DNA from: Gammaproteobacteria bacterium
GTDB lineage: Bacteria > Pseudomonadota > Gammaproteobacteria > S012-40
Direction: 5' to 3'
Length of the DNA stretch: 44,338 nt
NCBI GenBank assembly: GCA_029884425.1
Contig: JAOUHV010000022.1
Coordinates: forward strand, 1 to 44,338
Positions 24,948 to 44,338 of this stretch are shown in pieces. The notes under the pieces were generated by a model. The model saw only the letters and a program-made list of their open reading frames with translations. It was not told where the DNA came from and ran no database searches. Position 1 is the first letter of the stretch; the number at the start of each line of letters is the position of its first letter. Made by a program: the position numbers and the translations under genes.

Positions 24948-27287
24948 ATGAGCGTAAATCTCGACGATTATCGTGAAGCGCTGGAAAAAGCAGCGCCACA
25001 GCTAAAAGACACTCTCGATGCCACGTTTCATGAGGCCGCGCGCAATATGTCTGCGCAGGCGCTGCATGATTACATGGAAGGTGCGCGAGGTCTGGCCAAT
25101 CTTGGACGTGGCCCCAATCTGGTTACCTCTTTCCTGGAAGAAATGCCCGCCGTTGCCAAAGAATGTGGTGACGACATTATTCGTGACTGTATCAGCGCGG
25201 CGATGAAGCTGTCGTCGATGACTTCTGGCGAAGTCATTGCGTTGATGTTTGCCAGCTTGCCCAATGTGTCGCGCCGTCTGGGTGATCCAGAAATGGTACG
25301 CGCCTATCTGCAATTAATTCATCAGTTGTCTGCCAAGGCATCACGCGGTCTGCGGCCGATGTTGGGCGTGATGGATGAACTGCTGTCCAAGTTGACACTG
25401 AGCGGTTTGAAGCGCTGGGCCTTGTATGGTGCGCAGGCGTATGCCAAAGACCTTCCCGGTCAGGCCAGATTTTTCGCGCTGGAAACTGAAGATTCCAAAG
25501 CGATGCTGCAGCAACAGCGTCGAGGCTCGCTGTTTATCGATAATCAGCGCAAGATGAATTTCTATTTGCGCGCCTTGTGGGGCCGTGACTTTTTCCTGCG
25601 TCCTACGGCGGCAGATCACGATGGCTTTAAACCCTATATTCAAGCACGCATCATGCACTTGCCCGATGCGGTCGACCCCATCGGTGATGTGAGTGGTCAG
25701 GATCTGTATCGCGCCATGGTGGTTCACCAGGCCGCGCATTTGATGTATACCCGTGAGCCAATTTCTGCCGAGCAGCTCAGTCCCGCACAGATATTTTTTA
25801 TCGGATTCATGGAAGATGCGCGCATTGAATATTGCGCAATGCAAAACTTCCCCGGTCTGAAAAAACTGTGGGGTTCTTTGCACCGCATTGAGCGCAAAGA
25901 CAAACCGTTGCATCCGACGGTGTTGGTGTTGGAGCGTGTGGCGTTGTCACTGCTTGATGCAGAAGAAAAAGTGGGTGACGCGGAAATTGACGCCCTGGTG
26001 GAAAAATTCCGCACCAACGTTGAATCCAACAAGGACAATCCGCAGTTCTCCTGGCACATGGGTCTGGAGCTGTTTAATTTGCTGACAGCGCGCAAAGATG
26101 TGCCCAGTCTGCGTATTCTCGAATCATTGCGCATTCCTTATCGCGATGACAATCGTCTGATCTGGGATTTTGACGAATTTGCTTGGGCCGACAGCGAGGA
26201 ATACATGGCGGCCAGCCAGCGTCAGGTGCGCAAATATGTCAGCGCCGTGGAAATGGCCAACGAAGTGGATTGCGAACTGGCCGGCGATGATGCGCAGGAA
26301 GTGTGGATTTGCGCTACCGAGTTTATGCCTTACGAGGATGATCTGGAAACCACGGTCAGCTTTAATCAGATGTGGGGCAAGGAGCCGGTGTCTGATCCCT
26401 TCCACTATCAGGAGTGGGATTATCAAGTGCAGTTGCATCGCCCTGATTGGGCGACGGTGTTCGAACGTCGTCAGCCCAAGGCTGATCCGCAGATCATTGA
26501 CAATATTCTGATCGAGCACAAGCCGGTTACTCATCGCATCAAGAAAATTATCGACATGTTGCAGCCCGAGGGCGTGCAGCGTGTACGTAATCTGGAAGAT
26601 GGCGATGAGATTGATATCAACGCTGCTATTGATGCGATGATTTCGATTCGTATGGGAGAACAGCCTAATCCGCGCATCACCATGCGTAACGTGATCAAGA
26701 ATCGCGATTTGTCAGTAGTGGTGTTGCTGGATTTGTCGGAATCCACCAACGAAAAAATGAATGGCTCGGAAAAAACCGTGCTGGAGCTGACGCGCGAAGC
26801 GGCTTCACTGGTGGCTACCGCGATCAATGGCGTGGGCGATCCGTTTGCGATTCACGGTTTTGCTTCGGACGGTCGGCATGATGTGCAGTACTACCGCTTT
26901 AAGGATTTTGCCGAGAAGTGGGGCGATGATGTGAAGTCGCGCCTGGCCGGTATGAAAGGCGGATACTCCACGCGTATGGGCGCGGCATTGCGCCATGCTG
27001 GTCGTCATTTGCTTGAACAGCGCGAGCGCAAAAAATTAATTCTGGTGGTGACCGACGGTGAACCTGCAGACATTGACGAACGCGATCCGCAGCATTTGCG
27101 CATGGATACCAAGAAAGCAGTGGAAGAATTATCCACCAAGGGTGTGATGACCTACTGTCTGACCCTGGATCCTGATGCGGATGCCTATGTGAAGCGGATT
27201 TTTGGAGCCAACAGTTACACCGTCATTGATCACGTTGATCGTTTGCCGGAAAAACTGCCGTCGTTGTTTGCCAGTTTGACGCGTTAA
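24948..27287 (+). CDS. cbbO: CbbO, von Willebrand A-domain adaptor of the RuBisCO activase
   Basis: 779 residues, normal for CbbO. ATG preceded by AGGAGAG. The long N-terminal part is the helical CbbO region; the C-terminal 190 residues are a von Willebrand factor A domain with an intact metal-binding MIDAS: DLSES at about residues 595-599, a Thr in KGGYSTRMG, and the Asp of VVTDGEP. In characterised systems CbbO links the CbbQ hexamer to RuBisCO through this domain. It is the last gene of the cbb block; downstream a weak stem-loop (ATGCCG at 27293-27298 with CGGCAT at 27317-27322) lacks a T run, so the transcript end is unclear. Confidence 0.95.
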   Translation: MSVNLDDYREALEKAAPQLKDTLDATFHEAARNMSAQALHDYMEGARGLANLGRGPNLVTSFLEEMPAVAKECGDDIIRDCISAAMKLSSMTSGEVIALMFASLPNVSRRLGDPEMVRAYLQLIHQLSAKASRGLRPMLGVMDELLSKLTLSGLKRWALYGAQAYAKDLPGQARFFALETEDSKAMLQQQRRGSLFIDNQRKMNFYLRALWGRDFFLRPTAADHDGFKPYIQARIMHLPDAVDPIGDVSGQDLYRAMVVHQAAHLMYTREPISAEQLSPAQIFFIGFMEDARIEYCAMQNFPGLKKLWGSLHRIERKDKPLHPTVLVLERVALSLLDAEEKVGDAEIDALVEKFRTNVESNKDNPQFSWHMGLELFNLLTARKDVPSLRILESLRIPYRDDNRLIWDFDEFAWADSEEYMAASQRQVRKYVSAVEMANEVDCELAGDDAQEVWICATEFMPYEDDLETTVSFNQMWGKEPVSDPFHYQEWDYQVQLHRPDWATVFERRQPKADPQIIDNILIEHKPVTHRIKKIIDMLQPEGVQRVRNLEDGDEIDINAAIDAMISIRMGEQPNPRITMRNVIKNRDLSVVVLLDLSESTNEKMNGSEKTVLELTREAASLVATAINGVGDPFAIHGFASDGRHDVQYYRFKDFAEKWGDDVKSRLAGMKGGYSTRMGAALRHAGRHLLEQRERKKLILVVTDGEPADIDERDPQHLRMDTKKAVEELSTKGVMTYCLTLDPDADAYVKRIFGANSYTVIDHVDRLPEKLPSLFASLTR

Positions 27288-28943: not shown

Positions 28944-28972
28944 AAAAAAGGCGGCCTAGGCCGCCTTTTTTT
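28944..28972 (+). terminator. Bidirectional terminator overlapping the CFI-box gene stop
   Basis: AAAAAAGGCGGCC-TA-GGCCGCCTTTTTTT: 7-bp GC stem (28950-28956 and 28959-28965) flanked by A and T tracts. It serves the DUF302 gene on the plus strand and the convergent 786-residue gene on the minus strand. The minus gene's stop codon (28956-28958) lies within the hairpin. Confidence 0.9.
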
Positions 28973-31316
28973 GTCTGTACAGCATCAGCGTACCGAGCAG
29001 TGTTAGCAGCAGGCTTAGGGCGAGCAGTGGATATTCGATGGCGTATACCAGTGGGGTCAGCAACCCGCGAACAATCGTGCGCAGATATTCACGGTCGCGG
29101 ATGAAGTCGGCCAGCGGTGGTGAGTAGTGGTAGTACTGCTCCACAAACCAGCGTCCCGGCGCATTGGTGAGCAACCACTGATCTCGGAAATCGCGCAGTA
29201 CTTTGACGTGTGGTTCAAAGTAGGAGCCGTAAGCGGCGGTGGCGATAAAGCAATAACCTTCCCAGGGAGCGCGTTTGACTTGCTGCAACACCGCCGCGTT
29301 GTTATTTAGCAGGTCATTGGGCAGCACCGGGTCAACCACCAGTTCCAGTCGGCCGGTGGCGGGGTTGGTTTCTTTGGGGCGAATGGCGCTGTCAGGCTCT
29401 TCGGTGGAGAATGCGTAGGCGTGGGTGATAACCTGGCGATCCGCGAGTAGGTCGCGGGGGATGGCCTCGATATGAATGTTGGCAGTTTCATTGAGTGCGA
29501 GCTGTCTGATCGTGCAGCTCACGTCGATTAGCGAGGTTTTGCAGCTGCCTTTGTCAGTGGTGGCCTTTTTATAGGTCATGCCGCCGGGTCGCTGGCGCGC
29601 ATCGCGGTATTTGTCATTGTGGAAGTAGGCGCTGGTGAGTTTGACATTGATGCAGGTGGCGACATCGTTGCTGGTGTCGCCGGTGTTGTCAGGGTCTCCC
29701 TGGTTGGTGACAGTGACGCGCATGTCATTTTCGGTGCCGACGATGAGGCTGTCGGTGTTATTGGCCAGACTGATTTTCAAATCGACTTTTTTGTCAAAGC
29801 TGTTCAGCACGTAGTACTTGTTGGTTTGGCCGCCGGTACCGCCATTGACCAGCACGTAGGTGGTGCGAAATACTTTATCGTCGACCGCTGTGCTGCGGCT
29901 TTCCAGTTTGAGGGCTTCAACCAGAATATTGCCGCCACTGAGCGGGGGTGAAACCAGCTGGTTAAGATCAAATTGATCACAGTCGTCGGAGTAATAGCTG
30001 GCCCGCATGGCCGGGGTGGAGCTGCTGTCGGTGGACAGTGAACCAATCAGTACATCGTTGTAGCGATACAGGAATTTTCCTGCCTGGCCGCCTAGTGGTG
30101 GCAGATTGCCTTCGCCTTTGTTGATACTGTTGATCAGACCGTAGGTTTGCACCAGCTCATGACGAATGGTTTTGATGACATAGCCATTTTTGTCCTTTAC
30201 GGATTCCAATGAGGGTTCTGCGCGATACCAGAGTATTGGCACGGGATTGTCGTTGTTATCCGGATACCAGCCGGTGACGGTCAAGTGGTTGGTGCTGGTG
30301 AGGGTGACGGGTGTGCTCTGGAATTTTTCTTTGACATCGGTGTACTGGTATAGCTTTTCACCTGCTTCATTCTTTACGGTGACAATATTACTGCGCTTGT
30401 GTAGTTCCACCGGATTGGCTAATTTGTTTGCGGTGACGTAGGGCCAGATTACCGGGTACTCCTCGCCGTTGGGATCGTTGTTGCGGCGCAAATAGCCGAC
30501 GACGTGAATGTCTTCGGGATCAATGGCGGCTGTGCGACCAGGGCGATATTCAAACTGGCCATAATCGTTGGCATATGCACCTAGATCGGTGGCGCTGAAG
30601 GTGGCGTTGCCGTTGTTGTCTACGCCCCGGGTCCAGATGACGGGGCGGGAGATACGGACACCAAATTCGGTGCGGTAGGAGTTGCCAATGATGAGTTCGC
30701 CGACTCCTATGCCCAGCGCTTCAGACTCGGTGTCGCAGGCGATGCGCCACGGATCGCCTTCTTTCCAATTGGGAGTTTGGCTGCAATAGGATGCTGGAAG
30801 GTTATTGGCCGAGATGTAGCAATAGGGCGGCTGGAGAGCATTTTCGGCCGATGGCTTGCACTGCGGAATGTTTTTTTCGTAGGGCGGCAGGTAGCTGTAG
30901 AGATTCTGCCCTGACTTGCGGTTGAGGTGTACGCCACGGTGCTGACCGGTAATCAGCTGGCTGGTACCGACCATGGCCTCGTCCTGGCCATCGGCGCTGG
31001 AACTGTTGCTGATGTCGATAAGACTGATGCTGGAGTAGGGGTCCAAAGGGGTTGTGCTGGCCGGTGGCACCAATAGGCTGGCGAGGTACTGGCCAGTGTT
31101 ACTGTCCGGTTCCAGTAGCACAGGGTCGCCGGTCGTCAGGTATTTGCCGACGACTTTGCCTTTGTTATTGATGTTAAAAGGCAGAATAGTTGGGTCGATT
31201 TCTTTGACCTGGAAACGCTCCATCGCCAGCACAGCCGTGCCCGTTCCGGTGAGTAGAACCACCAGTAGCAGGTTTGACAGCGATGTGCAGCACAAAGGCT
31301 TTTCTTTAAACATCAA
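28956..31316 (-). CDS. Large secreted protein with CFI-box C-terminal sorting signal
   Basis: 786 residues. Signal-like N-terminus ([16 protein letters not shown]). The N-terminal half recalls secreted proteins with repeated N-x-x-G-x-V-V-G motifs ([12 protein letters not shown]) and many Asn/Asp/Tyr turns; residues about 500-680 hold beta-rich segments resembling DUF11/CARDB-like domains. At about residue 689 comes [10 protein letters not shown], the signature of the CFI-box-CTERM class, followed by a 60-residue spacer, a hydrophobic segment ([19 protein letters not shown]) and a basic tail (RQKKAA). That layout (motif, membrane helix, positive end) is typical of C-terminal anchoring or sorting signals. 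Localisation is predicted to the envelope; the function is unknown. Its terminator hairpin includes its own stop codon. Confidence 0.82.
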
Positions 31317-32413: not shown

Positions 32414-33109
32414 ATGCCAGATTTCAAAATTGCGCCGTCGATACTGTCGGCTGATTTCGCCCGCCTGGGTGAAGAGGTTGTTAACGTGCTGGATTCTGGT
32501 GCGGATATTGTTCACTTCGACGTGATGGACAACCACTACGTGCCTAATCTGACCATCGGTCCGCTGGTGTGTGAAGCGCTGCGCAAGCATGGCGTAAAAG
32601 CAGAAATCGATGTGCATTTGATGGTTAAGCCGGTTGATCGCATCATTCCTGATTTTGCCAAGGCCGGTGCCAGCTACATTACGTTTCACCCCGAAGCGTC
32701 TGAACATGTTGACCGTACCCTGCAGCTGATCAAGAGCGAAGGTTGCAAGTCTGGTCTGGTGTTTAATCCAGCGACGCCGCTGGACGTACTTAAGTACGTG
32801 ATCGATAAGGTAGACATGGTGCTGCTGATGTCGGTGAACCCAGGTTTTGGTGGTCAGAGCTTTATTCCAGCGACACTGGGCAAACTGCGTGAAGCGCGCA
32901 AAATCATTGATGCGTCCGGTCGCAACATCCGTCTGGAAATTGATGGCGGCGTGAAAGTCGACAACATCCGCGAAATTGCCGAAGCGGGCGCGGATACGTT
33001 TGTGGCGGGTTCTGCGGTGTTTGGTGCCGGCAAGGCAACTGACTCTCATCGCTACAACAGCGTTATCGCCGCGATGCGCGCCGAGTTGGCCAAGGCCAAA
33101 ATCGGTTGA
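32414..33109 (+). CDS. rpe: Ribulose-phosphate 3-epimerase
   Basis: 231 residues, the normal length. It interconverts ribulose 5-phosphate and xylulose 5-phosphate in the Calvin and pentose phosphate cycles. Conserved TIM-barrel motifs are intact: [15 protein letters not shown] at the start, [17 protein letters not shown] and [10 protein letters not shown] with the metal-binding His/Asp residues, [12 protein letters not shown], and the phosphate-binding LEIDGGV and AGSAVFG. The stop codon overlaps by 4 bases the TTG start of an NHL lipoprotein gene, linking translation of a carbon-fixation enzyme to the cytochrome region that follows. Often in other bacteria rpe is followed by gph (phosphoglycolate phosphatase) or trp genes, which are not seen here. 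Confidence 0.97.
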
Positions 33110-34176
33110 TTGTTTTGCGGAGCGGATTAGCGCGATTATCCGCTCTGTGCCTGTCCGTCAGCCTGCTTGGGCTGGCGGGCTGCGCAACTTTTTCGTCCTC
33201 ATCTTCTGCCATTTACTGGCCAGCCCCTCCGCAGACGCCTCGCTTTGTGTATGAAGCGACGTTGCAAACAGCAGATTTTTTTCAGGCCAGCCAGCGTAGT
33301 GCGCTAGAGGCAAAACTCAATGATGTATTGCTGTCGCAGCCACTGTTGAACAAGCCGTTCGATGTGGCAGCCAACAATGGCGTTATTGCGATTACCGATA
33401 CCCAAAGCGCGCAGGTGCATGTCTACGACATGCCGCGAAAGCGGGTGTTTAGTTTTGGCTGGCGCGGCGACGGGCAACTGCAAAAACCGCTAGGTGTGGC
33501 GATGGATGCGACGAATCAAATTTATGTCGCCGACAGTGATCGCGGCATGGTTTCGGTATACACCCGTTTTGGCCATTTTCTGCGTGATGTGGGTGCGCCG
33601 ACGATGTTCGATCGCCTGAGTGATGTGGCGGTTAGCAAGGATGGTTCGCGCATTTACGCATTGGACCGTGGTGGGGTGGAATCCCAGCGACACCAGGTGA
33701 CGATATTTGACGCCGATGGTCGGATGTTGGCGACGTTTGGTGGTCGCGGTCAGGCGGATGGGCGGTTTAACCATCCGTCACAGTTAGCGTTGATGAGTAA
33801 CGGCGACGTGCTGGTGATGGATGCGGGAAATTTTCGCGTGCAGCGATTCTCTGCATCAGGTGAATTTAAATATGTCTGGGGTAAACCGGGCGCGGCCATC
33901 GGGCAGTTGGCCCGGCCACGTGGATTGGCGGTGGATTCTTATGATCACGTGTATGTGAGTGATGCAGCGTTTCAAAATGTTCAGGTTTTTACTGCCGCAG
34001 GACAATTGCTGTTAACCATTGATGCCAAACATCAATACGGCCCAGGCCATTATGTGCTGCCGGCCGGAATGAATGTGGACGAAACGAATCGCTTGTATGT
34101 GGTTGATCAGTTTTTGGGCAAGGTCGAAGTGTTGCGTTTGCTCGACGATGATGAACGAAAACGGTTGGCGAACTAA
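33106..34176 (+). CDS. NHL-repeat six-bladed propeller lipoprotein, copy 1
   Basis: 356 residues. Start taken as TTG at 33106, overlapping the rpe stop (TTGA); a TTG at 33115 is the alternative. Lipoprotein signal with lipobox LAGC (Cys26). The mature part has repeated NHL-type blades: [56 protein letters not shown] and [28 protein letters not shown], consistent with a six-bladed propeller. NHL propellers mostly bind proteins or ligands. The paralogs at 41789 and 42815 lie amid cytochrome genes, so this copy is probably the first member of that cluster. Envelope localisation (outer-membrane lipoprotein) is predicted; the function is not known. Confidence 0.88.
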
Positions 34177-34364: not shown

Positions 34365-35234
34365 ATGAGAGTAAACCGCAGCCTGGTGGCTGGATGGTCA
34401 GTGTTGGCGCTCACCGGAGCGATTGTTGCGTCGGTACCATCCTGGGCAGGTATTGCCGAATCTGTTCATAATCTGGGTACAACGGGAACGGGCCCCAGTT
34501 CGAACGGCGGTGCTCGTAATCAATTCTCCGGTACTGCGGAAATTTGTGTTTTTTGTCACACCCCTCACGGCGGTGATTCCAGTGTTTCCGTGCCTCTTTG
34601 GAATCGCAAAATTAATTCAAGCTCTGCATACACCACGTATGACCAGCTGGGCACCAGTACCTTTGACGCGCAAGTGGCACCAGTCGGCTCAGTATCTATT
34701 GGCTGTCTTTCCTGTCACGACGGTTCGATTGCGTTGGACGCATTGCTGAATGAGCCAGGCTCCGGGGCGGTTAATCCTGGATTTAGTGCGGGCAACTGGT
34801 CCGGGGCGGATATTGTGAACAGTGGTGAATTGAAGCCTGGGATTGTGCAGAACCTGGGGATTGATCTGACCAATGACCATCCCATTGGTATGCAGTATGC
34901 CGGTGGAGGTATCAGTGCCTCTGCACCGCAGTTGCCACAAGGCGATACCACTGACCCTGATTTTGCACCAGTGCTGTATAAAGTCCGCGACGGTCGATTC
35001 CTGTGGTGGGTCGACAAAGATTGGCGTACCGGCGGTGATGCGCAGCGTACCAAAACCGACGTGGTCCTTTATACCCGCGATGCCAGTAATGGCTACGCGG
35101 GGCAATCGCAACAAGAGCCTTTCGTGGAGTGTGCGAGTTGCCATGATCCGCATACCACCGAAAATCCTACGTTTCTACGAATCAGCAATACAGACACGCC
35201 CAGCGGTCTGTGTCTGACCTGTCACGTGAAATAG
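34365..35234 (+). CDS. Secreted tetraheme c-type cytochrome
   Basis: 289 residues. ATG with GGGGGAG three bases upstream. Signal peptide ending near VASVPSWA. Four haem-binding CxxCH motifs: CVFCH (61-65), CLSCH (114-118), CASCH (256-260) and CLTCH (283-287). The pairs are arranged as in multihaem proteins with doubled CxxCH motifs: the first pair is followed by a long stretch without haem sites (about 138 residues), then the second pair. TPH follows the first site and DPH the third, giving possible distal His ligands. Soluble in the periplasm or exported. The last gene in the window begins with the same CVFCHxPH ... CLSCHDG layout, so the two are paralogs. It opens a plus-strand cluster with an isomerase and a barrel protein. 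Confidence 0.93.
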   Translation: MRVNRSLVAGWSVLALTGAIVASVPSWAGIAESVHNLGTTGTGPSSNGGARNQFSGTAEICVFCHTPHGGDSSVSVPLWNRKINSSSAYTTYDQLGTSTFDAQVAPVGSVSIGCLSCHDGSIALDALLNEPGSGAVNPGFSAGNWSGADIVNSGELKPGIVQNLGIDLTNDHPIGMQYAGGGISASAPQLPQGDTTDPDFAPVLYKVRDGRFLWWVDKDWRTGGDAQRTKTDVVLYTRDASNGYAGQSQQEPFVECASCHDPHTTENPTFLRISNTDTPSGLCLTCHVK

Positions 35235-35250
35235 TTTGGGTGAGCTGATT

Positions 35251-36252
35251 TTGTTGGCAGCACGAAAATACAAACGCAAATATTTAGCGTGTACCACTTG
35301 GGCGCTGCTGTGTTTTAGCGCAGTGTCGCAAGCAGTGCCTGCGGCTGAGAAACTGACGACCGCAGCCAAAAAAGTGGAATATTTTGCGGTCGTAGGCGAT
35401 CAGACGATTTTGATGAGTGAATTTGAATCCGCTTATCAGGCAGGTTTGCGCAAACGGTTTTATCATGGCAAGGTGCCGCAGGAGCAGTTGCAGGCATTTC
35501 GCAAAGAGGTATCGCAGACGCTGATTGATCGTGCGTTGCTGGTGCAGGAGGCCAAGCGAGTTGGTGTGCGTCCTGATGCGGCGGCGGTGAAAGCTCAGTT
35601 GGCGCAGTATGAGGCCAGGTACAGTCAGCAGCAGCACTGGCGACAAAACAAAGATGTCATTTTGCCAGGTTTGACGGCAGCACTGGAAGAAGAGAGTTTG
35701 TTGCAGCGCTTCGAGGAAAGAGTGCGCAAAGTTGCGTTACCGAATGATGTCGCTGTACGTGAGTATTACAAAAAACACCCAGAATTGTTCACTACGCCTG
35801 AGCAAATTCGGTTGTCGCTGATTTTGCTTAAGGTTGATCCGGCATCAACCTCTGATGTTTGGCAGGCGGCGCGTGAAGAAGCAGGGATTTTGCTGAAGCG
35901 CCTGCGTGGTGGGGCGGATTTTGCGGCCATGGCGAGAATTCATTCTGCAGACGCATCGGCATCCGCAGGTGGCGACATGGGCTATTTGCATAAAGGCATG
36001 TTGGCCGGACCTGCTCAACAGGTGATTGATCAATTGCAAATAGGCGCAGTCTCTGAGCCAGTCAGTTTGTTAACCGGTATTGCCCTGTTTCGTCTGGAAG
36101 AGCGACGCCAGGCAAAGCTGAACAAGTTTGATGATGTGGCAGAACGGGCGCGACAATTATTGGTGCGCGAGCTGAGTGATCATGCCTGGCAACAAGCGGT
36201 AAAACGCTTGCGTGATACGACAAAAGTTACCATCAATAGCGCTGCGTTGTAG
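35251..36252 (+). CDS. PpiC/SurA-type periplasmic peptidyl-prolyl isomerase
   Basis: 333 residues from TTG 35251, where GGGTGAG lies 6 bases upstream; the frame begins with another TTG at 35236, only 1 base after the cytochrome stop. Start is uncertain, but the product begins with a basic segment and hydrophobic stretch (YLACTTWALLCFSAVSQAVPA), a signal peptide. Residues about 45-115 resemble the SurA N-domain (VGDQTILMSEFESAY ... LIDRALLVQEAKRVGV). The parvulin domain is at about 185-286 (IRLSLILLKV ... ADFAAMARIHSADASASAGGDMGYLHKGML). It lies directly before the barrel gene, so it probably helps fold the outer-membrane protein or cytochromes of the cluster. Confidence 0.88.
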   Translation: MLAARKYKRKYLACTTWALLCFSAVSQAVPAAEKLTTAAKKVEYFAVVGDQTILMSEFESAYQAGLRKRFYHGKVPQEQLQAFRKEVSQTLIDRALLVQEAKRVGVRPDAAAVKAQLAQYEARYSQQQHWRQNKDVILPGLTAALEEESLLQRFEERVRKVALPNDVAVREYYKKHPELFTTPEQIRLSLILLKVDPASTSDVWQAAREEAGILLKRLRGGADFAAMARIHSADASASAGGDMGYLHKGMLAGPAQQVIDQLQIGAVSEPVSLLTGIALFRLEERRQAKLNKFDDVAERARQLLVRELSDHAWQQAVKRLRDTTKVTINSAAL

Positions 36253-36318
36253 CACTGGGGATAATCTGCGTTGGTCATTTGGGGAGATGACCAGCTGCTG
36301 AATAAAACAAAAAATAAT

Positions 36319-38175
36319 ATGCAGGGGTGCTTCGGCTTTATGCTGTTTGCAAGCGAGGGGAAAAAACGAGCGGTTGCGAAAACGCGATGTACACATGCGC
36401 GGACTCCAGGAGTGACTGGGGTGGTGCTGGCATGTGGCTTGGCGTTATCCGTGCTTGGCGCAGGTTTGCAGGCGGATGAGGCATCGCCTTCGCTGTTCGG
36501 TAACGTTGGTTTTTTCTATGGTTTGCAAGAGGCTGATGGTGGTGCTCGTAGCGAAGATTCGACCATGGTTGGATCGCTGGGTACGCGTGGCTATCTATGG
36601 CAGCCCTGGTTTGCGCAATACAGTGGTGGAGCCAGCTTCAGTGGGCATACTGCTGAAAATGAAAACGTCAACAATCAAGCAGAAATCTTGTCGGGTAATG
36701 CAGCGCTTTCGCTGTTTCCGGTGAGCCGCTTTCCCTTTAGTGCTTCGTTTAATCAAGTCAATCGTGACTATGATTGGGCAAACAAGCATACCCTGGAAGA
36801 TCATTTTTTTACCAAAACCCGTAGTAGAAGTGTAAATGCGCGTCAATCGCTGATCACCAACTGGGGTTCGCGCGTTGATGCCTGGTACGACGTTAGTATG
36901 CGGGATTTTGATGATTACGATCAGAGCCGTCCCAAGTATGATATTCAGGACACAACACTGGGTGCGAAATTTCAGCATCGCGGCGAGCGTTTTAATTTGT
37001 ACGCAAATGCTACCCAGCAACAGCAGGATAATTCGGATGTTGATCGTGCATCAACGTCGCAGATGGTGTCGCTGACCCATGATTATTTTCCGACCAGTAC
37101 CTTTTACATCAAAACGCTGGGAAGTCAGTCGGTAAATACGATTGAGGACGAGTCGAAGTACTCCGATTTTGCCTTCAAGTCGCAGAGTGAAACCACCAGC
37201 GATCAGGCAACTAGCATGTTTTACTGGCGACCAGATTATAAGCCGTATACTGCTACTGGCGCAGTCCGTTTGAATCGGCGGACACAGGTATTTCCGACCA
37301 AGGACGCACGTCAACACAGTTTCGCCGCCAATATGGCTGGCAACTATCACCTTAATCGCAAAACGCGGTTAACACTGACAGGTAATGTTTCTGATCTGGA
37401 AACCCAGGGAAGCAACAGTCTGGCGGGTAACGTGGCGGCCTTGGTGTATTTTCAGTCCGATCGCCAGTTGCTGGGTAAAATGACGTATTACTGGTTCGCA
37501 GACGGTGGTGTACAAGAGGATGTGGTCGCCGAATATCAACGGACGGAAACCGGGCAGACAGCAAATGCTGGCTTGGGTCATTCAGCTAATCGCAGCTGGA
37601 ATACCGGGAATCGCTCGAATTTGCGTGTGAGTGGTCAGCAGGCCGTCAGGCAGCTAGCCAAGTTTGGTCGTGTTGAGGATGAGTCCTTGGCGTTGACGCA
37701 TACAGCTACCGCAGCCTATGGTCTCAATGAGCGTAGTGATTCGTTTTATGCCCAGTTGACTGCAATAGATTCTCGAGAATTGGTTGTTGATGGTAGTAAT
37801 CAGGTGGCAACCTTGCAAATTTCCAAAAATTCGTCCCTCAGCAGACTAAGCACCTGGGGCGGAAATGTCTCGTCCCAGATGACCCGACGCGATGCCGGTG
37901 ATGGTTCAAATATTAGTCTAACAACCACATCAAGTGCCCAGTTGAACTACCAACATTCCCGGTTGTTTGGTATATATAGGCTCAAATTTCGAACCAAACT
38001 CGAGGGAACCAGTATTGAGAATCGTTTCGGTGCTGACCGTCTGCAGGGAGACTGGGAAAGTAGAATCAGTTATAGTGTGGGTAAGCTGAATACTGATCTA
38101 TTCTTACGGGCGATGCAGAGCGATTCCGGTATCGGTAACCGCATGGGTGTGTTGCAGATCAACAGAAGTTTCTAA
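36319..38175 (+). CDS. Large outer-membrane beta-barrel protein (porin-like)
   Basis: 618 residues from the ATG at 36319; the frame is open from TTG 36271 and another ATG occurs at 36340, so the start is unsettled. A hydrophobic signal core (GVVLACGLALSVLGAGLQA) precedes the mature DEASPSLFG. The whole mature part is made of alternating strand-length segments with Asn/Asp/Gly turns and the chain ends in Phe (LQINRSF), the standard barrel-assembly signal. No plug domain or TonB box was found, so it is not an obvious receptor. The size is near that of the MtrB/PioB and OmbB porins of porin-cytochrome complexes (roughly 650-800 residues), and its neighbours are cytochromes and an isomerase. A conduit role is inferred from context, not from similarity to a named porin. 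Confidence 0.82.
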   Translation: MQGCFGFMLFASEGKKRAVAKTRCTHARTPGVTGVVLACGLALSVLGAGLQADEASPSLFGNVGFFYGLQEADGGARSEDSTMVGSLGTRGYLWQPWFAQYSGGASFSGHTAENENVNNQAEILSGNAALSLFPVSRFPFSASFNQVNRDYDWANKHTLEDHFFTKTRSRSVNARQSLITNWGSRVDAWYDVSMRDFDDYDQSRPKYDIQDTTLGAKFQHRGERFNLYANATQQQQDNSDVDRASTSQMVSLTHDYFPTSTFYIKTLGSQSVNTIEDESKYSDFAFKSQSETTSDQATSMFYWRPDYKPYTATGAVRLNRRTQVFPTKDARQHSFAANMAGNYHLNRKTRLTLTGNVSDLETQGSNSLAGNVAALVYFQSDRQLLGKMTYYWFADGGVQEDVVAEYQRTETGQTANAGLGHSANRSWNTGNRSNLRVSGQQAVRQLAKFGRVEDESLALTHTATAAYGLNERSDSFYAQLTAIDSRELVVDGSNQVATLQISKNSSLSRLSTWGGNVSSQMTRRDAGDGSNISLTTTSSAQLNYQHSRLFGIYRLKFRTKLEGTSIENRFGADRLQGDWESRISYSVGKLNTDLFLRAMQSDSGIGNRMGVLQINRSF

Positions 38176-38250
38176 TACTCTTTAGTGCTGTTTCGCTGGG
38201 TTGAGTATTGTTGGGGCAGCGGTCGCTGGGGCGCCGTTGCGGTGTAGAAA

Positions 38251-38294
38251 AACAAAGGCAGCCTGTTCGCTTCTGGGGGTATGGCTGTTTGTTT
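38251..38294 (+). other. Hairpin between the barrel and first c7 cytochrome genes
   Basis: CAAAGGCAGCC (38253-38263) pairs with GGCTGTTTG (38283-38291) across a two-base bulge, followed by TTTC. It could be a weak terminator of the barrel gene or an mRNA-processing site. The gap to the next gene is 159 bp and may include a separate promoter (AT-rich stretch at 38292-38320). Confidence 0.4.
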
Positions 38295-38334
38295 CGGTAA
38301 AATAATTGATTAAAAACAAACGGAGAATGTAATC

Positions 38335-38769
38335 ATGAGAGCCAAATCGGAGCGCACTGCTGTTTGGAAAATCGCCCTGTTTGGGGTGTTAGCCTGGGTT
38401 GGAGTGCTTATAACACCGCAGACTGCTCAAGCAGAGTATGCAGACGTCGTCATTAACAACTATGCAGATGCCGCAGGCATGCGTCCAGTCGTATTTCCTC
38501 ATTGGTATCACCGTATTCGTTTCCGTTGTAAGGTTTGTCACGCGGACTTGGGCTTTAAGTTCAAGGCCGGTGGTAATGAAATTACCATGGCAAAAATTAT
38601 CGATGGCCAGTTCTGTGGTGCTTGCCATAACGGTGAGATCTCTTGGTCCGTAGAAAACTGCGGCCTGTGTCACTCTGGTATTCCTGGTACTCCTACTCAC
38701 ATCAGTGGAAGTACAGTTCAGCGTCTCGTAGCTCCGGCCTACAAGTCTCTGGATACCAACAAGAAATAA
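38335..38769 (+). CDS. Small triheme c-type cytochrome (c7-like), copy 1
   Basis: 144 residues. ATG follows CGGAGAATGTAATC. Signal peptide ends at TAQA (about residue 33). Three CxxCH sites: CKVCH (65-69), CGACH (94-98) and CGLCH (109-113). The first is preceded by FPHWYHRIRFRC, the FPHxxH segment typical of c3/c7-type triheme domains, where the His residues serve as sixth ligands giving bis-His haems. The tail is short. It is the smallest of three related triheme proteins in the cluster and lacks their N-terminal DGIHD region. A periplasmic electron carrier role, as for PpcA-type c7 proteins, is inferred. Confidence 0.93.
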   Translation: MRAKSERTAVWKIALFGVLAWVGVLITPQTAQAEYADVVINNYADAAGMRPVVFPHWYHRIRFRCKVCHADLGFKFKAGGNEITMAKIIDGQFCGACHNGEISWSVENCGLCHSGIPGTPTHISGSTVQRLVAPAYKSLDTNKK

Positions 38770-38801
38770 TTGTGGCGAACATAGATTAAGGATAAGAGAC
38801 C

Positions 38802-39497
38802 ATGAGAGAGATGATAAAAACGCTAGCTATTGCTGCTTCGGTCGCAGCGATGATCCCGCTGACTGTGCAAGCTGAAGGTATTTCTGTTGTGGCAGCAGCG
38901 ACCCCCGTGACTTCTGCTGAAGTTACCGGTTCAGTACCAAAGCAGGTTAGTGTTTCCAACGCGAACACTTTTAACCGCTTGTTGAAGAAAGACAAGGATC
39001 CGAATGCCGCTCCACCTGAAGATGGTATTCACGACACAGATAATGACAATACTTTTAACCTGCAGCCGCCCAAGGTGGCTTACGAGGGCTGGCCAAAAAC
39101 TAATTTTGGTAACCACGTAAACTGGGTGCAGGTGTTGGCGGAAGGTAAGATTAATCCTCGCTATGACCGCGTTGATCCAGAGGTTGAGCCCTTTGTTATG
39201 GATCTGGACATCGTGCGTCCGGTGAAAGCATCTGTGCCAGATGTGGTGTTCCCACATAAGCCGCACACTGTGTGGTTGCACTGCTCCAACTGTCATCCAA
39301 AGATCTTTGTGCCACAGGCGGGCGCAAACCAGATCAACATGTCAGCCATTATCTTGGGTGAGAAATGTGGTGTTTGTCATGGTAAGGTCTCTTTCCCTGT
39401 GACTACCTCATCCTGCAAACTGTGTCACTCCAAGCCGAAGGACAAGAACTGGACGCCTCCTTTGAGCGGTGCGACAGTGAAGAATCCTTGGCGCTAA
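38802..39497 (+). CDS. Triheme c-type cytochrome with N-terminal extension, copy 2
   Basis: 231 residues. ATG at 38802 preferred (AAGGA about 9 bases upstream); the next Met is at 38814. Signal peptide ends at TVQA (24). CxxCH sites: CSNCH (161-165), CGVCH (189-193) and CKLCH (205-209), the first preceded by FPHKPHTVWLH. The c7-like triheme domain occupies residues about 145-215. The upstream part carries PPEDGIHDTDND (71-82), LQPP (87-90), NWVQVLAEGKINPR (107-120), shared with the copy at 41232. I take this family to be close to the c(7)-type triheme-domain proteins described from metal-reducing bacteria. Periplasmic electron transfer is likely. Confidence 0.92.
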   Translation: MREMIKTLAIAASVAAMIPLTVQAEGISVVAAATPVTSAEVTGSVPKQVSVSNANTFNRLLKKDKDPNAAPPEDGIHDTDNDNTFNLQPPKVAYEGWPKTNFGNHVNWVQVLAEGKINPRYDRVDPEVEPFVMDLDIVRPVKASVPDVVFPHKPHTVWLHCSNCHPKIFVPQAGANQINMSAIILGEKCGVCHGKVSFPVTTSSCKLCHSKPKDKNWTPPLSGATVKNPWR

Positions 39498-39510
39498 GCC
39501 ATTGATTGTC

Positions 39511-39582
39511 GGGTGCCGCCTGGGTGGGCGGTACCCACAAACAAAGTACATCTGAGTTGTCGGGGTGTGCTTTGTTTGTGGG
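39511..39582 (+). other. Two overlapping inverted repeats before the cupredoxin gene
   Basis: Stem A pairs 39511-39520 (GGGTGCCGCC) with 39527-39536 (GGCGGTACCC), with one G-T pair. Stem B is a perfect 13-bp pair, 39534-39546 (CCCACAAACAAAG) with 39570-39582 (CTTTGTTTGTGGG). The two share CCC at 39534-39536, so they cannot both be fully formed. No T run follows. The region is otherwise gene-free from 39498 to 39667. Confidence 0.6.
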
Positions 39583-39667
39583 GAGCACGTTTGCGGTTCG
39601 ATTTAGTTCTGGATTGGGCCGGCCGATACATCGCGTTATGTCAAATCAACGTAAGAGTAAGGGTGTA

Positions 39668-41185
39668 ATGGCTTTGAACAAGAAAATCGTTAAGAGCTGC
39701 GTGGAAAGTTTTGCGTTGCTAGGTGTGGTTGCGGCAATGGCAGGTTGTGGCCACTTGGGCTTGAATCGGGCGTCTTCAGAATCTTCCCAACCACAAATAT
39801 CCGAAGAGCAGCGCGAGGCTGCACAGCTGGCGAAGGAAGATCAAGAAATCGAACTCATGTCAGCCCCCCCGAGTGCGGCGGATGTGAAGCCCGCTGCCGA
39901 GGCGGTGAATTTATCACCCAAAACACCGGATGCGATACCCGTCGCATCACCTTCTCCGGCAAAACCTGCGTTGGTTATTCCCAAAGAACCCAATACTGTA
40001 TTGATCTCTGTAGATAGTAAAGACAAGTCGCACCCTGAGTTTGGTGAAGGTCACCCCAATGGCTTTTTGGTAAACGGGGTGATGGGCGATGACATCATTG
40101 TCCGTCGAGGAGATAAATTCACGTTCCGTGTAGATACCGACGTCAAACATGACTTTTACATCACCACCAGTGCTGTTGGTTGGGGTGGTAGTGTATACAC
40201 CACGGGGGTGACAGGGCAGTTCACCTACAAGGGTGATGTCGTTCTGCAGACGGATGAATCCACGCCAGAGACGCTTTACTACCAATGCCGCAACCACAAA
40301 AATATGGGTGGTCGCATTGTTATCGTGGACAAAAATGCGGATGTTGCTGCGGTTAAGAAGCGATTGCTCGAAGAAAGACAAAAGGCGTTGGCCAAAAATG
40401 CGAGCGGTGCTGGTCATTCGCATGTTGATGAAGGCAAAGTGAAGCAGAAAATAGCTTACGCCAAGATGATGTTGGGCATTCGGGGTAAGCAACTTGATGC
40501 TGCAGCCAAGGCTGCCATCGAAGGCAAGATTAAGGAGTCTGATGCGGCTTTGGGCAAAGGTAATTTGGATGTTGCTTATTCAGCAGCTGAGGCAGCGGCA
40601 GATTTGCTGAAAACGCCTGGTGCCGCGCAAGCTGAAAAGAATAACTTGGTAGAAGCCAAAAAGGCTTACGAGGAAAAACTGCATTCGATTGATAGCATCA
40701 AAGAATCTCATCAACGCGCTTTTTCTCAAGCGAAGAAAAAAGGTGAAAAGGCCGTGGCCTTTGACCAAAAACGGGTCGATGAAATGTTGTCCTCAGCCAC
40801 GCAATTGGCGAAATCAGAGAAATACGCTGAAGCTAAAAAGGAGCTGACTCGTGTAGAGTATTTGATTACAACAGCGCTTAATGAGATGGTTGGGTCGCGT
40901 ACGGTGGTGTTTGAACTTAAGTTTGATACCCCTGCGGATGAATACGAATACGAAAAGAAACGTTATTTCAGTTACATCGAGTTAATTCCAACGGCGATTG
41001 AAATGCGCAAGCCTGAACAGAGCAGAATAGATGCTGCTCAACAGTTTGTGGATAAGGCTAAGTTTTATGCACAAAAGGCGGATGAATCGATGGCTGCTGG
41101 TCGTGTTGACGAGGCGATTGTTGTTATCAAGGATGCAACCTCAGAGTTGCGGGTTGCCTTGATGAGACTGGGTGTTTCCATGTAA
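39668..41185 (+). CDS. Cupredoxin-domain lipoprotein with long helical tail
   Basis: 505 residues from the ATG at 39668, where AAGGG lies six bases upstream; the frame is open further upstream without a site. Lipobox AMAGC gives Cys27. After a Pro/Ala-rich linker, residues about 110-220 look like a cupredoxin: DKFTFRVDTDVKHDFYITT with His161 and LYYQCRNHKNMGGRI with Cys207, His210 and a candidate Met213. The Cys-x2-His-x2-Met spacing is shorter than the Cys-x2-His-x4-Met of plastocyanin and pseudoazurin. Residues about 225-505 are Ala/Lys/Glu-rich helices (EEAKKAYEEKLHSIDSIKESHQRAF-like), probably a coiled-coil or helical bundle scaffold. It lies between two triheme cytochrome genes, so a copper electron-carrier role is plausible. 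Copper binding has not been shown. Confidence 0.85.
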   Translation: MALNKKIVKSCVESFALLGVVAAMAGCGHLGLNRASSESSQPQISEEQREAAQLAKEDQEIELMSAPPSAADVKPAAEAVNLSPKTPDAIPVASPSPAKPALVIPKEPNTVLISVDSKDKSHPEFGEGHPNGFLVNGVMGDDIIVRRGDKFTFRVDTDVKHDFYITTSAVGWGGSVYTTGVTGQFTYKGDVVLQTDESTPETLYYQCRNHKNMGGRIVIVDKNADVAAVKKRLLEERQKALAKNASGAGHSHVDEGKVKQKIAYAKMMLGIRGKQLDAAAKAAIEGKIKESDAALGKGNLDVAYSAAEAAADLLKTPGAAQAEKNNLVEAKKAYEEKLHSIDSIKESHQRAFSQAKKKGEKAVAFDQKRVDEMLSSATQLAKSEKYAEAKKELTRVEYLITTALNEMVGSRTVVFELKFDTPADEYEYEKKRYFSYIELIPTAIEMRKPEQSRIDAAQQFVDKAKFYAQKADESMAAGRVDEAIVVIKDATSELRVALMRLGVSM

Positions 41186-41231
41186 CTCGTTTTGTATGGA
41201 TTGATTGCTAATATTTGGATGCGGATGGGAC

Positions 41232-41834
41232 ATGAAGTTTGTTAAGACAAGGGCGAAGAGCGTGCTGGGCATGCTGATGGCCGCAGCGCTGGGGTTTGCA
41301 GCGTCGGTGATAGCCGCAGAGCAACCTAAGTTGGAGGCAACTTATGAAGCCAGCTCTGGTCATTTTCAATTGCACGGTGATGTTGTTCCTATTGCCGAGG
41401 ATGGTATTCATGATCCGTTCAATGAATCCGTTGCTATTTTGCAGCCGCCAGCGGAAGCCATGCTTAATTTTCCTCGGGATAAGCGCGGTATCATCAATTG
41501 GGTTGAAGCGCTGGATAAAGGTTTGATCAACCCTCGCACGGGCTTGACTGGCGATGAAAAAATGCACTCTGTGGATTTCGACGTCATTTTTCAGAATACG
41601 GCATCAATGCCGTATGTGCGCTTTCCCCATCGCCCCCACACGATTTGGTTAACCTGTAAAAATTGCCATCCTGGGATATTTATTCCACAGCGAGGCGCTA
41701 ACCCCGTGACCATGGCGGCCATCATGCAGGGTGAGTACTGCGGTGTGTGCCACGGTAAGGTTGCTTTTCCACCCTATGAGTGTGATCGATGCCACAAAGA
41801 ACCCCGCGAAAGCGCAGGACTGCGCTACAAATAA
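41232..41834 (+). CDS. Triheme c-type cytochrome with N-terminal extension, copy 3
   Basis: 200 residues from the ATG at 41232; upstream in-frame sequence from 41205 gives no better signal. Signal peptide ends near SVIAA (29). CxxCH sites: CKNCH (142-146), CGVCH (170-174) and CDRCH (184-188). FPHRPHTIWLTC precedes the first, and the IFIPQRGANPVTMAAIMQGEYCGVCHGKVAFP stretch is near identical in layout to copy 2. Its N-terminal part carries the same motifs in the same order: EDGIHDPFN (56-64), LQPP, NWVEALDKGLINPR. Its last 46 bases overlap the next gene, so the two are probably translationally coupled. Confidence 0.92.
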   Translation: MKFVKTRAKSVLGMLMAAALGFAASVIAAEQPKLEATYEASSGHFQLHGDVVPIAEDGIHDPFNESVAILQPPAEAMLNFPRDKRGIINWVEALDKGLINPRTGLTGDEKMHSVDFDVIFQNTASMPYVRFPHRPHTIWLTCKNCHPGIFIPQRGANPVTMAAIMQGEYCGVCHGKVAFPPYECDRCHKEPRESAGLRYK

Positions 41835-42805
41835 TAACAGGCGGATTTTTTACTCTTGCATTGCTGGGGTGCGCGAGTACTCCGGTGACTGCCCCGGTGC
41901 ACTTTTCGTCAGGCGGTCAGGCAAAAACTTTGTCGCATGTTAAAACCATTGATACCGTCAAGTTGGCGGGGGATGGTTTTTTTGTTTCGATGCTGGCTGG
42001 AAGTGCAACCTACGATATCAAGCGTCCTGCGGCCATTGGTGTGCGTAATGGGCTGCTCTATATTGCGGATGCGGGCAATGACGGTGTGTTATTGGTATAC
42101 GATTTGGCCAATGATCGAATTTCACCGTTTCGAGGCGCTGGAGAGTTAATCCAGGATGAAGCATCAGATATCTTTGTTGCAGCGGATGGCTCGTTCTATG
42201 TTGCGGATACGCAGGGTAAGCGGGTTTTATGGTTTGCCGGTGATGGTGAGCTGCGTAAGGTATACCGTGACGATTCCAATATTTCCCGCCCCATCGCGGT
42301 GGTAGTCAACGAAGCAAACAACGAAGTTTATATTGCTGACGAAGTTTATAGCAAAGTTATTGTATTCAATCGTGATGGTGAACCGTTGCGCGGTATGGGT
42401 GGGCGCGGCGAAGGAACGGGGAAATTCCGCATTATTACCGACATGATTAAAGTGCCTGGTGGCTATCTGGTCAGCGATCGAATTGAGTTAAGTGTGCAAA
42501 TGCTGGATGAGTCCGGGCAATATCAGGGTGACTTTGGTTCGGACAAGTTGGATTTTCCAACGGCGCTTGCCGTGGATAGATTCGGTCGGGTGTATGTTGC
42601 TGAAAAGTCGGACAGCACCATCAAAGTTTTTCAGCGCGGTGAGTTGATTGATGTCATCGGTAGAAATGGCTACGGCGACGGCGAATTTCGTTACATCAGC
42701 GACATGAAGCTGGTGGATGACAAGCTGTACGTTGCAGACAGCTTGAATGGCCGAATTCAGGTGTTTGATGTGATCCCGCCTGCCGCCAAAGTGGGTTCGC
42801 TGTAA
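41789..42805 (+). CDS. NHL-repeat propeller lipoprotein, copy 2
   Basis: 338 residues. ATG at 41789 lies inside the preceding cytochrome gene (46-bp overlap, +1 frame shifted); no later ATG, GTG or TTG before the signal segment offers an alternative. Strongly basic n-region (MPQRTPRKRR), then lipobox ALLGC with Cys28. NHL-type blades follow: GVRNGLLYIADAGNDGVLLVYDLAN, IFVAADGSFYVADTQGKRVLWF, VVNEANNEVYIADEVYSKVIVFNRDGE, AVDRFGRVYVAEKSDSTIKVFQ, and MKLVDDKLYVADSLNGRIQVFD. Related to the copies at 33106 and 42815. It is a probable outer-membrane lipoprotein that binds a partner; possibly a scaffold for the cytochromes. Confidence 0.87.
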   Translation: MPQRTPRKRRTALQIITGGFFTLALLGCASTPVTAPVHFSSGGQAKTLSHVKTIDTVKLAGDGFFVSMLAGSATYDIKRPAAIGVRNGLLYIADAGNDGVLLVYDLANDRISPFRGAGELIQDEASDIFVAADGSFYVADTQGKRVLWFAGDGELRKVYRDDSNISRPIAVVVNEANNEVYIADEVYSKVIVFNRDGEPLRGMGGRGEGTGKFRIITDMIKVPGGYLVSDRIELSVQMLDESGQYQGDFGSDKLDFPTALAVDRFGRVYVAEKSDSTIKVFQRGELIDVIGRNGYGDGEFRYISDMKLVDDKLYVADSLNGRIQVFDVIPPAAKVGSL

Positions 42806-42814
42806 CAGCTCACC

Positions 42815-43909
42815 ATGCTGCGTAAATCGTTTTTTTTCGTGTTGCTCATGCCGCTTTTGATAGCGGCATGCGCGTCTTCTCCCGTCGCATTGCAGTATCA
42901 GCATGCACAGTCCGCCAGTTGGCCAGTGCCGCCGGATCGGGTTCGCTTTGTCTACGTGGGCGAGTTGTCGGGCGCGAGTAATTTTTCTGAAACTACCTCA
43001 AGTAATTTTCTAAAAAAGGCCTGGTTCGTACTGACAGGCGTACTGTTGGGCGGAGATCAGCGCAGCTCTTTGCAGCGTCCGTCGTCCGGTTATACTGATG
43101 TGAGCGCAGGGCGTGTTTATGTAACTGATGTTGGCCGCAAAGGCGTGTTTGTGTTTGATCAGGCAGAAGGGCACTTGCGGTTTTGGGATGCAGCCTCTGC
43201 TAAACACGCGTTTCAAACACCCATTGCGATCAGTCAGGGCGTGAATGGGGAGCTGTGGGTCACTGATGCGGACTTGAGTGTTGTAGTTCGCCTGGATTCG
43301 GATGGTGAGCCGCTGGGCTGGGTGGGCGAAAGTGTCTTGCAACGTCCCACGGGAATTGTGTTTGATTCGACGCAGTCATTGATGTTCGTCGCCGATGCTG
43401 CAGCACATAATATTCAGGTTTTTAACGCTAGCGGCACTCTGGTGCGCACGATAGGTCAGCGCGGAGAAGGGCCTGGGCAATTTAATGGTCCCACGCATCT
43501 GGCGATTGATGGTGATCGCTTGTTGGTGACGGATACGCTGAACTCACGAGTGCAGATATTGTCGCTGCGGGGTGAATTTATTTCGTCGTTCGGTACGCGA
43601 GGCATGTATATCGGCAACATGCCGCGACCCAAGGGGGTGGCGGTTGATGGTGCGGGACACATCTATGTTGTGGAATCGTACTATGACTATCTGCTAGTAT
43701 ACGACGCGGAGGGGCGCTTACTCTTGCCTATGGGCGGTTCCGGGAAAAATCCTGGCCAGTTTTATTTGCCTGCAGGCGTGTGGACTGACGGAGATAAACG
43801 GATTTTTGTGGCCGACATGTTCAATGGTCGAGTAGTAAGCTTTGACTATGTGGGTGATGCGCAAAGCGATTCACCACCACCTGAGAATAATCATAATACC
43901 GGCGGTTAA
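42815..43909 (+). CDS. NHL-repeat propeller lipoprotein, copy 3
   Basis: 364 residues; ATG 9 bp after the previous stop. Lipobox LIAAC with Cys19. Shares with copy 1 the segment WPxPPxxxRFVYxGEL near the N-terminus and NHL blades throughout: GVNGELWVTDADLSVVVRLDSDGE, GIVFDSTQSLMFVADAAAHNIQVFNASG, HLAIDGDRLLVTDTLNSRVQILSLRGE, GVAVDGAGHIYVVESYYDYLLVYDAEGR, and a final GVWTDGDKRIFVADMFNGRVVSFDYV. Ends in a short polar tail (SDSPPPENNHNTGG). The gene after it, a tetraheme-type cytochrome, starts 2 bp past its stop. Role not known; interaction with the cytochromes or surface partner is an inference. Confidence 0.88.
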   Translation: MLRKSFFFVLLMPLLIAACASSPVALQYQHAQSASWPVPPDRVRFVYVGELSGASNFSETTSSNFLKKAWFVLTGVLLGGDQRSSLQRPSSGYTDVSAGRVYVTDVGRKGVFVFDQAEGHLRFWDAASAKHAFQTPIAISQGVNGELWVTDADLSVVVRLDSDGEPLGWVGESVLQRPTGIVFDSTQSLMFVADAAAHNIQVFNASGTLVRTIGQRGEGPGQFNGPTHLAIDGDRLLVTDTLNSRVQILSLRGEFISSFGTRGMYIGNMPRPKGVAVDGAGHIYVVESYYDYLLVYDAEGRLLLPMGGSGKNPGQFYLPAGVWTDGDKRIFVADMFNGRVVSFDYVGDAQSDSPPPENNHNTGG

Positions 43910-43911
43910 AT

Positions 43912-44338
43912 ATGCGCAAAATGGGAGTAATGCTCGCTGCGTGTCTGGGCGGAATGTTGGCCTGGAGTCACCTGGTTCTGGCGTTGGATTTTCCGTTAGC
44001 CCCTGATCGCGTTCCCGATGTTTCCAATACTCGCCATAATTTTTCCGTGGATGGCCCTGCACCGCTGAAAACCAACGAGCCGCGCAACGTCGTATCCACT
44101 AATCAAAAAGAAGTCTGCGTATTCTGCCATATCCCTCATGCTGCGGCTGCGAATGTTGGCAATCCTCGACCGTTGTGGGCGCGTGACGCCATCGAAACGG
44201 CGGGCGGTGCCGTGACGTATACGCTGTACGCATCTGGCTCAACCGATGCGACTTTGGCGCAACCTGGTAATGCTTCCAAAATGTGTTTGTCATGTCATGA
44301 CGGTACGTTGTCGGTGGCGACGGTGGGTAGTATGACTG
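43912..44338 (+). CDS. Multiheme c-type cytochrome, 3' end cut by window edge
   Basis: ATG at 43912, 2 bp after the preceding stop; 142 residues visible and the frame continues past the last base. Signal peptide MRKMGVMLAACLGGMLAWSHLVLA. Two CxxCH sites are visible: CVFCH (69-73), followed by IPH, and CLSCH (125-129), followed by DG. This matches the first tetraheme cytochrome (34365) in haem-site sequence and spacing, so further CxxCH sites are expected beyond the edge. The gene was not otherwise evident from complete open frames because it is truncated. Electron-transfer role inferred from the haem sites and context. Confidence 0.88.
   Translation, partial: MRKMGVMLAACLGGMLAWSHLVLALDFPLAPDRVPDVSNTRHNFSVDGPAPLKTNEPRNVVSTNQKEVCVFCHIPHAAAANVGNPRPLWARDAIETAGGAVTYTLYASGSTDATLAQPGNASKMCLSCHDGTLSVATVGSMT

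Follow-up and report, generated by a model that had tools for sequence, protein, structure and literature searches.

The closest described counterpart of the locus reported here is the Uet (undecahaem electron transfer) system of Candidatus (Ca.) Tenderia and Gallionella (PMC10734462, PMC12575090). In Ca. Tenderia electrophaga, three trihaem cytochrome genes (Tel_16515, 16520 and 16530) are apparently co-transcribed with the TPR gene 16525; the trihaem genes are among the most highly expressed genes on a cathode, and the undecahaem gene is 16545 (PMC5371394). According to the naming that follows Eddie 2022, as given in PMC10734462, UetA is a tetrahaem cytochrome, UetB an isomerase, UetC a barrel, UetD, UetE and UetG trihaem cytochromes, UetH and UetI NHL proteins and UetJ the undecahaem cytochrome. 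UetA is placed there as an extracellular tetrahaem subunit, with no mention of filaments (PMC10734462), and uetABCDEFGHIJ is conserved in Tenderiales (PMC12575090). We analysed a stretch of 44,338 nucleotides (the window), which is the entire contig JAOUHV010000022.1 (C22) of a gammaproteobacterial genome of 2.9 Mb and 98% completeness, and found that ten plus-strand genes across positions 34365-44338 show the same gene set and order as far as these sources describe them.

From the window and its relatives, the order was read as tetrahaem cytochrome, PpiC isomerase, barrel, two trihaem cytochromes, TPR-like protein, trihaem cytochrome, two NHL proteins and undecahaem cytochrome. A contig of Ca. 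Tenderia (L057) follows the same order up to its end within uetF, its isomerase gene being split in two frames. Identity to the Ca. Tenderia proteins was 80% for UetD, 74% for UetE, 50% for UetA and for the copper part of UetF, and 24% over 585 residues for UetC. As L057 ends within uetF, UetG to UetJ were compared with L052 only, a metagenome-assembled genome (MAG) labelled Chromatiaceae. Since both the published gene set and the Ca. Tenderia sequences match, the window holds a Uet locus, which by its gene content is a further member of a system described so far by name and prediction. The original prediction, made from the DNA letters, had proposed an outer-membrane electron conduit composed of barrel, cytochromes, copper protein and propellers and had found no named system for it. 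The conduit reading is supported and fits the predicted Uet system, and gene content and order now provide the name. Gene types, place and strand also stood, whereas the count of nine genes has to be corrected to ten, and an NHL lipoprotein gene upstream (33106-34176) had been omitted. We consider it probable, at roughly 0.8, that the cluster is a Uet-type outer-membrane conduit of an autotrophic gammaproteobacterium; this value covers membership in the system, export and haem loading of the cytochromes and formation of the barrel, and the further roles proposed below are individually less sure.

The gaps between the ten genes are short, and there is a single overlap of 46 bases between uetG and uetH, which is similar in most relatives of the family. 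Domains were assigned with Pfam and NCBIfam. The cluster begins with uetA (34365-35234), encoding a tetrahaem Paired_CXXCH cytochrome with an N-terminal export signal. It is followed by uetB (35236-36252) for a periplasmic PpiC/SurA-type prolyl isomerase (Rotamase, E 5.7e-15; SurA_N_3, E 5e-10) and uetC (36271-38175) for an outer-membrane barrel with a C-terminal Phe, the exact starts of both being uncertain. Three trihaem c7-type cytochromes match TIGR04257, namely UetD (38335-38769; E 1e-17), exported by a signal peptide, and UetE (38802-39497; E 8e-16) and UetG (41229-41834; E 2e-18), each with an N-terminal extension. The lipoprotein UetF (39668-41185; lipobox MAGC), whose start is the first in-frame ATG ahead of the signal, combines a type-1-copper (cupredoxin-like) domain, assigned by its ligand motif, with a helical/TPR-like C-terminal part. 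UetH (41789-42805; NHL, E 3e-17; lipobox LLGC) and UetI (42815-43909; NHL, E 8e-19; lipobox IAAC) are NHL-repeat lipoproteins, and the N-terminal 142 residues of UetJ (43912-44338), a Paired_CXXCH protein with an OmcE-like module, are cut by the contig end. The upstream gene, here termed NHL0 (33106-34176, plus strand), encodes an NHL-repeat beta-propeller lipoprotein (Pfam NHL, E 2.4e-24; lipobox LAGC) just downstream of rpe; it is outside the ten named Uet genes, and 52 of 80 named loci have it ahead of uetA. Scans for sigma-70 promoters and terminators gave signals no higher than in shuffled sequence.

The plus frames of 34365-44337 contain exactly 15 CxxCH motifs (four in UetA, three each in UetD, UetE and UetG, two in the cut UetJ), whereas 200 base shuffles yielded 0.31 on average and never more than 3. 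Thus, the predicted minimum of 15 sites proved correct, as did the barrel ending in Phe and the last cytochrome being truncated by the edge. The remainder of UetJ apparently lies on contig C11 of the same genome (C11:12-1856), which encodes the C-terminal 616 residues with 10 CxxCH. Identity to UetJ of a relative (L024) is 52% for the window piece and 53% for the C11 piece. The window accounts for two haem motifs and C11 for 10, and a stretch between the contigs is missing; complete relatives have 11 CxxCH. The machinery for haem attachment adjoins the cluster: directly downstream of uetJ, cytochrome c maturation (ccm) genes were observed in this genome (C11:1850-9062; CcmC-type, CcmE, CcmF and CcmH/CycH-type) and in two family relatives, with CcmB and other ccm genes in a relative, and this shared position supports the join of C22 and C11.

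To judge from sequence comparison, UetA is a cytochrome of the OmcE nanowire family. A single-sequence search of the PDB returned only 7tfs (E 2.5e-22) and 9yuq (a cytochrome entry of 16 chains, E 1.3e-22) under E 1, and a profile of 76 homologues matched 7tfs at E 5.6e-40 and 9yuq at E 7.5e-38, with no other PDB sequence under 0.01. Geobacter assembles OmcE subunits into electrically conducting filaments on its surface. The entry 7tfs is the OmcE filament, which has a rise of 34 Å (PMC12954529); in it, a histidine of the neighbouring subunit serves as ligand to one haem (PMC12954529, PMC9473688). The four CxxCH histidines and four distal histidines (H35, H68, H172 and H263) are invariant in 67 UetA homologues, OmcE and 9yuq, and polymerisation of UetA is plausible on these grounds. 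The relationship extends to UetJ. In an 11-haem UetJ of a relative, the first ~230 residues match OmcE 7tfs with E 2.6e-19. Of the eight ligand histidines, seven each occur in 49 to 52 of 53 UetJ N-termini, the rest being gapped; the eighth is less secure and was seen in 39, with 14 gapped. As UetJ opens with an OmcE-like module, it could dock onto a UetA chain.

Two more OmcE-like cytochromes with five CxxCH each are encoded elsewhere in the genome (C11:20353-20688 and C49:2106-2573). The gene on C49 lies next to two 3-haem class I cytochromes and a further NHL lipoprotein gene. In many betaproteobacterial loci, the Uet cluster has beside it pairs of 3-haem proteins similar in length to the C49 pair, and in betaproteobacterial-type loci a second OmcE-like tetrahaem gene is often found ahead of NHL0.

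The AlphaFold2 model of UetC, calculated from 67 sequences, is a beta-barrel of high confidence (mean predicted local distance difference test (pLDDT) score 91.2, predicted template modelling score 0.76) with 28 long strands by our own count from DSSP and no plug domain. Among the Foldseek matches listed, MtrB (6r2q_B) had the highest template modelling score (0.41). In the VIA list it aligned with the lowest root-mean-square deviation (rmsd; 8.2 Å over 398 residues), the other matches listed having 11.4 to 16.8 Å. UetC matched no Pfam or NCBIfam model, including the MtrB/PioB model TIGR03509. A search of the whole genome with the MtrB/PioB model also gave no match, and as no control matched either, this result shows little. 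TonB-dependent receptors took the top ranks by Foldseek E-value, and UetC was rejected as such a receptor; these ranks reflect a general likeness of large barrels. The absence of a plug and the lower rmsd of MtrB mean that they are no evidence of nutrient uptake. A plug-free barrel of ~28 strands, as modelled, would have room for a cytochrome.

UetE and UetG are 42% identical, extensions included. The best PDB match of UetE is 3ov0 (E 5.7e-26), a cytochrome of linked trihaem modules which we take to be GSU1996 of Geobacter, a string of four such modules. Considering this match, UetD, UetE and UetG may line up in a similar way. Away from the cluster, C13:35569-35769 (L131:7495-8160) encodes a fourth cytochrome of the trihaem c7 type, which is 46% identical to UetG and probably a lipoprotein. 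In UetF, residues H164, C210, H213 and M216 (numbered from 39659) form a type-1 copper ligand set that is invariant in 28 sequences. Compared with curated cupredoxin models, UetF gave only a sub-threshold match to PF25489, and its copper domain had no sequence match in the PDB. The copper motif is present in all UetF proteins of the gammaproteobacterial type, Ca. Tenderia included. In clusters of the betaproteobacterial type, one or two helical proteins of ~300 residues, usually in tandem, replace UetF and have no copper motif, which indicates that the copper domain is a lineage trait that the core of the system does not need.

Searching 56 genomes, our own included, for the barrel gave hits in all 13 members of the family (own included) and in 3 of 43 genomes elsewhere in the class. 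In relatives, the order NHL0-UetA-B-C-D-E-F-G-H-I-UetJ holds as far as the contigs reach, single genes being unseen in some. UetA, UetD, UetE and UetG of family relatives are 70-92% identical to the window proteins (UetD 76-92% in relatives with clusters, UetG 71-87% in those showing UetG), UetI 43-55% and the barrel 31-47%. When named genomes were scanned with the UetA alignment, 80 loci were detected in Gamma- and Betaproteobacteria, with a few in Magnetococcales and Kiloniellaceae and one in a MAG named Nitrospirae. For the 64 of these with at least 9 kb downstream of uetA, the next gene was the isomerase in 60, the barrel was present in 62 and at least two trihaem genes in 62. The conserved order in relatives argues that the cluster genes are not unrelated neighbours. 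Two loci without a barrel (L067 and L069) are lone UetA paralogues without isomerase in Ramlibacter and Polaromonas genomes that have a full cluster as well. A UetA-profile match with E <= 1e-30 was obtained in about a tenth of evenly sampled genomes of the class (31 of 274), a few of these matching only more distant members. Cultured Ramlibacter, Dechloromonas, Azoarcus, Aromatoleum, Piscinibacter and Herbaspirillum are among the named loci. One locus named Caldilineales (L051) carries a gammaproteobacterial-like UetA and may be a mis-binned contig; for this reason we left it out when judging how widely the system has spread. A tblastn search of plasmids with UetA gave no match.

The organism had been predicted to fix CO2, and a block for this pathway is indeed present at 19898-27287, comprising carbonic anhydrase, a LysR regulator, the RuBisCO large subunit (21896-23326), CbbQ and a VWA protein (CbbO-like). 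The genome further contains several haem-copper oxidase matches and one hydrogenase-like match, and the whole-genome search found neither SoxB nor DsrA over curated cut-offs. As judged from these genes, RuBisCO block and oxidases together with the lack of SoxB and DsrA over cut-off fit an extracellular donor without proving it. By analogy with Ca. Tenderia, the net flow of electrons is probably directed inward, an extracellular donor supplying oxidase and CO2 fixation.

We propose the following course of events. The cytochromes would be exported and haem-loaded, as their signal peptides and CxxCH motifs indicate, and UetB, to judge from domain content and adjacency, may help to fold UetA, the barrel or both. 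UetC is predicted with high confidence to form the large plug-free barrel, and UetD, UetE and UetG could provide a haem relay through the periplasm into it, replacing the decahaem MtrA. UetA would be located on the cell surface and may well polymerise like OmcE, and UetJ, consisting of the OmcE-like module and about seven further haems, might connect the chain of UetA with either the barrel or the solid. UetF, as an outer-membrane lipoprotein with a predicted type-1 copper site, and the propellers UetH and UetI may hold or tune the assembly. In its full form, this is a combined nanowire and conduit for electron uptake, with OmcE-like UetA filaments outside the cells of Gamma- and Betaproteobacteria, UetJ as anchor or cap that plugs the filament into the conduit, and three trihaem proteins within a ~28-strand barrel in place of MtrA; we put this forward tentatively, as its chances appear somewhat below even.

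A simpler arrangement would be a plain porin-cytochrome conduit, with UetA as a tetrahaem cytochrome that stays monomeric at the surface and never polymerises. This possibility also falls a little short of even odds. It agrees with the current description of an extracellular subunit without mention of filaments (PMC10734462); moreover, an insert of ~60 residues (about 180-250) that is absent in OmcE might block stacking, and UetJ shows the same ligand pattern, though it is probably no polymer. Against it stands the invariance of all eight OmcE ligand histidines in the 67 UetA homologues: in OmcE, one of these eight is supplied by the neighbouring subunit (PMC12954529), so that a monomer sharing its fold would have one haem lacking a sixth ligand. 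Alternatively, the genes may represent first of all a nanowire secretion and assembly operon similar to the osc (omcS-companion) operon of Geobacter, for which PMC13194489, citing Shen 2025, gives OscH a role in folding, OscE, OscF and OscG in secretion and OscD in morphology. UetC would then export UetA, UetB fold it, the propellers shape and the trihaem proteins charge the filament, and the barrel would be no permanent haem conduit. UetA belonging to the OmcE family, a barrel predicted to be empty and large, and UetA being among the most conserved proteins of the cluster and the barrel among the least all point in this direction. In Shen 2025, OscH is reportedly a prolyl isomerase, OscE, OscF and OscG are channel-like and OscD is a propeller, which by description would be the same set of parts as the Uet helpers. 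However, secretion would not require as much as three conserved trihaem cytochromes plus an 11-haem protein; we regard this alternative as possible but rather doubtful.

Dechloromonas, Azoarcus and Aromatoleum, which are known as anaerobic heterotrophs, are among the Uet carriers, and this would suit an outward conduit through which respiratory electrons pass to minerals or partners when oxygen is low, as would the origin of OmcE and the MtrB-type barrel in outward systems and the ability of multihaem chains to run both ways. The present genome is autotrophic, with several haem-copper oxidase matches and no SoxB or DsrA over cut-off, and in Ca. Tenderia the trihaem genes are highly expressed on a cathode (PMC5371394), so that an outward function is unlikely here. 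The idea of a nutrient porin with accidental neighbours, for which the TonB-receptor ranks could be quoted, although these are usual for any large barrel, is disfavoured by synteny, and we consider it extremely improbable. Across several classes, 62 of 64 loci keep the barrel next to the trihaem genes and UetA; UetC has no plug domain, and MtrB is closest in size according to the model. The original prediction had named synteny and the room inside the barrel as possible grounds for refutation, and on both the outcome favours the conduit. Nevertheless, several observations weigh against the Uet conduit as proposed. No purified or deleted Uet protein was found in the literature searched, the founding paper Eddie 2022 being excluded. 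The AlphaFold2 model of UetA without haems (76 homologues) was poor, with a pLDDT of 58, and gave no fold match; apo-cytochromes with little secondary structure model badly, and for this reason we relied on sequence profiles. Ligand conservation alone is no proof of polymerisation, as UetJ has the same ligands, and sequence does not reveal the direction of flow or the donor.

Outside the cluster, positions 2-18786 of the window encode four very large proteins in succession (1031 to 1856 residues each), all rich in Cadherin-like beta-sandwich domains and three of them also containing FG-GAP repeats; by their domains they are probably surface or adhesion proteins. On the minus strand, 28956-31316 encodes an exported protein of 786 residues in which a C-terminal motif, [10 protein letters not shown], precedes a membrane segment.

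How electrons from solids enter electroautotrophs and certain iron oxidisers has yet to be settled, and Uet is among the few candidates that have a name. With UetA assigned to the OmcE family, this question is tied to a filament whose structure has been solved, and cytochrome filaments are predicted for cultivable carriers. Cultured strains carry Uet loci, and hence the prediction can be tested without the uncultured Tenderia. If the combined nanowire and conduit reading holds, electroautotrophs such as Ca. Tenderia would possess cytochrome nanowires that bring electrons in. Relative to published Uet, the assignment of UetA to the OmcE family, the OmcE-like start of UetJ and the type-1 copper site of UetF are additions made here from sequence; together with the barrel model of UetC they were absent from the literature searched, again leaving aside the founding paper.

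Compared to OmcE of Geobacter sulfurreducens (7tfs), UetA is homologous over the haem-binding parts and keeps all CxxCH and distal histidines; it differs in its confidently modelled extra segment of ~60 residues and in that its gene shares a proteobacterial operon with those for the barrel and the trihaem cytochromes. The osc operon resembles Uet in that a nanowire cytochrome is encoded with folding, export and shape factors; its cytochrome OmcS, however, is a hexahaem protein without sequence similarity to OmcE, and the osc operon is not known to include a trihaem set or a UetJ-like protein. UetE matches a module of the linear trihaem-module cytochrome 3ov0, whereas each of the three modules of Uet is a protein of its own. 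Like MtrCAB and MtoAB, Uet as proposed combines a large barrel, for which MtrB is the size match by prediction, with multihaem cytochromes on both sides. UetC is nevertheless outside the MtrB/PioB family by model, and instead of a decahaem MtrA or MtoA the cluster encodes only 3-, 4- and ~11-haem cytochromes, with trihaem modules taking that place.

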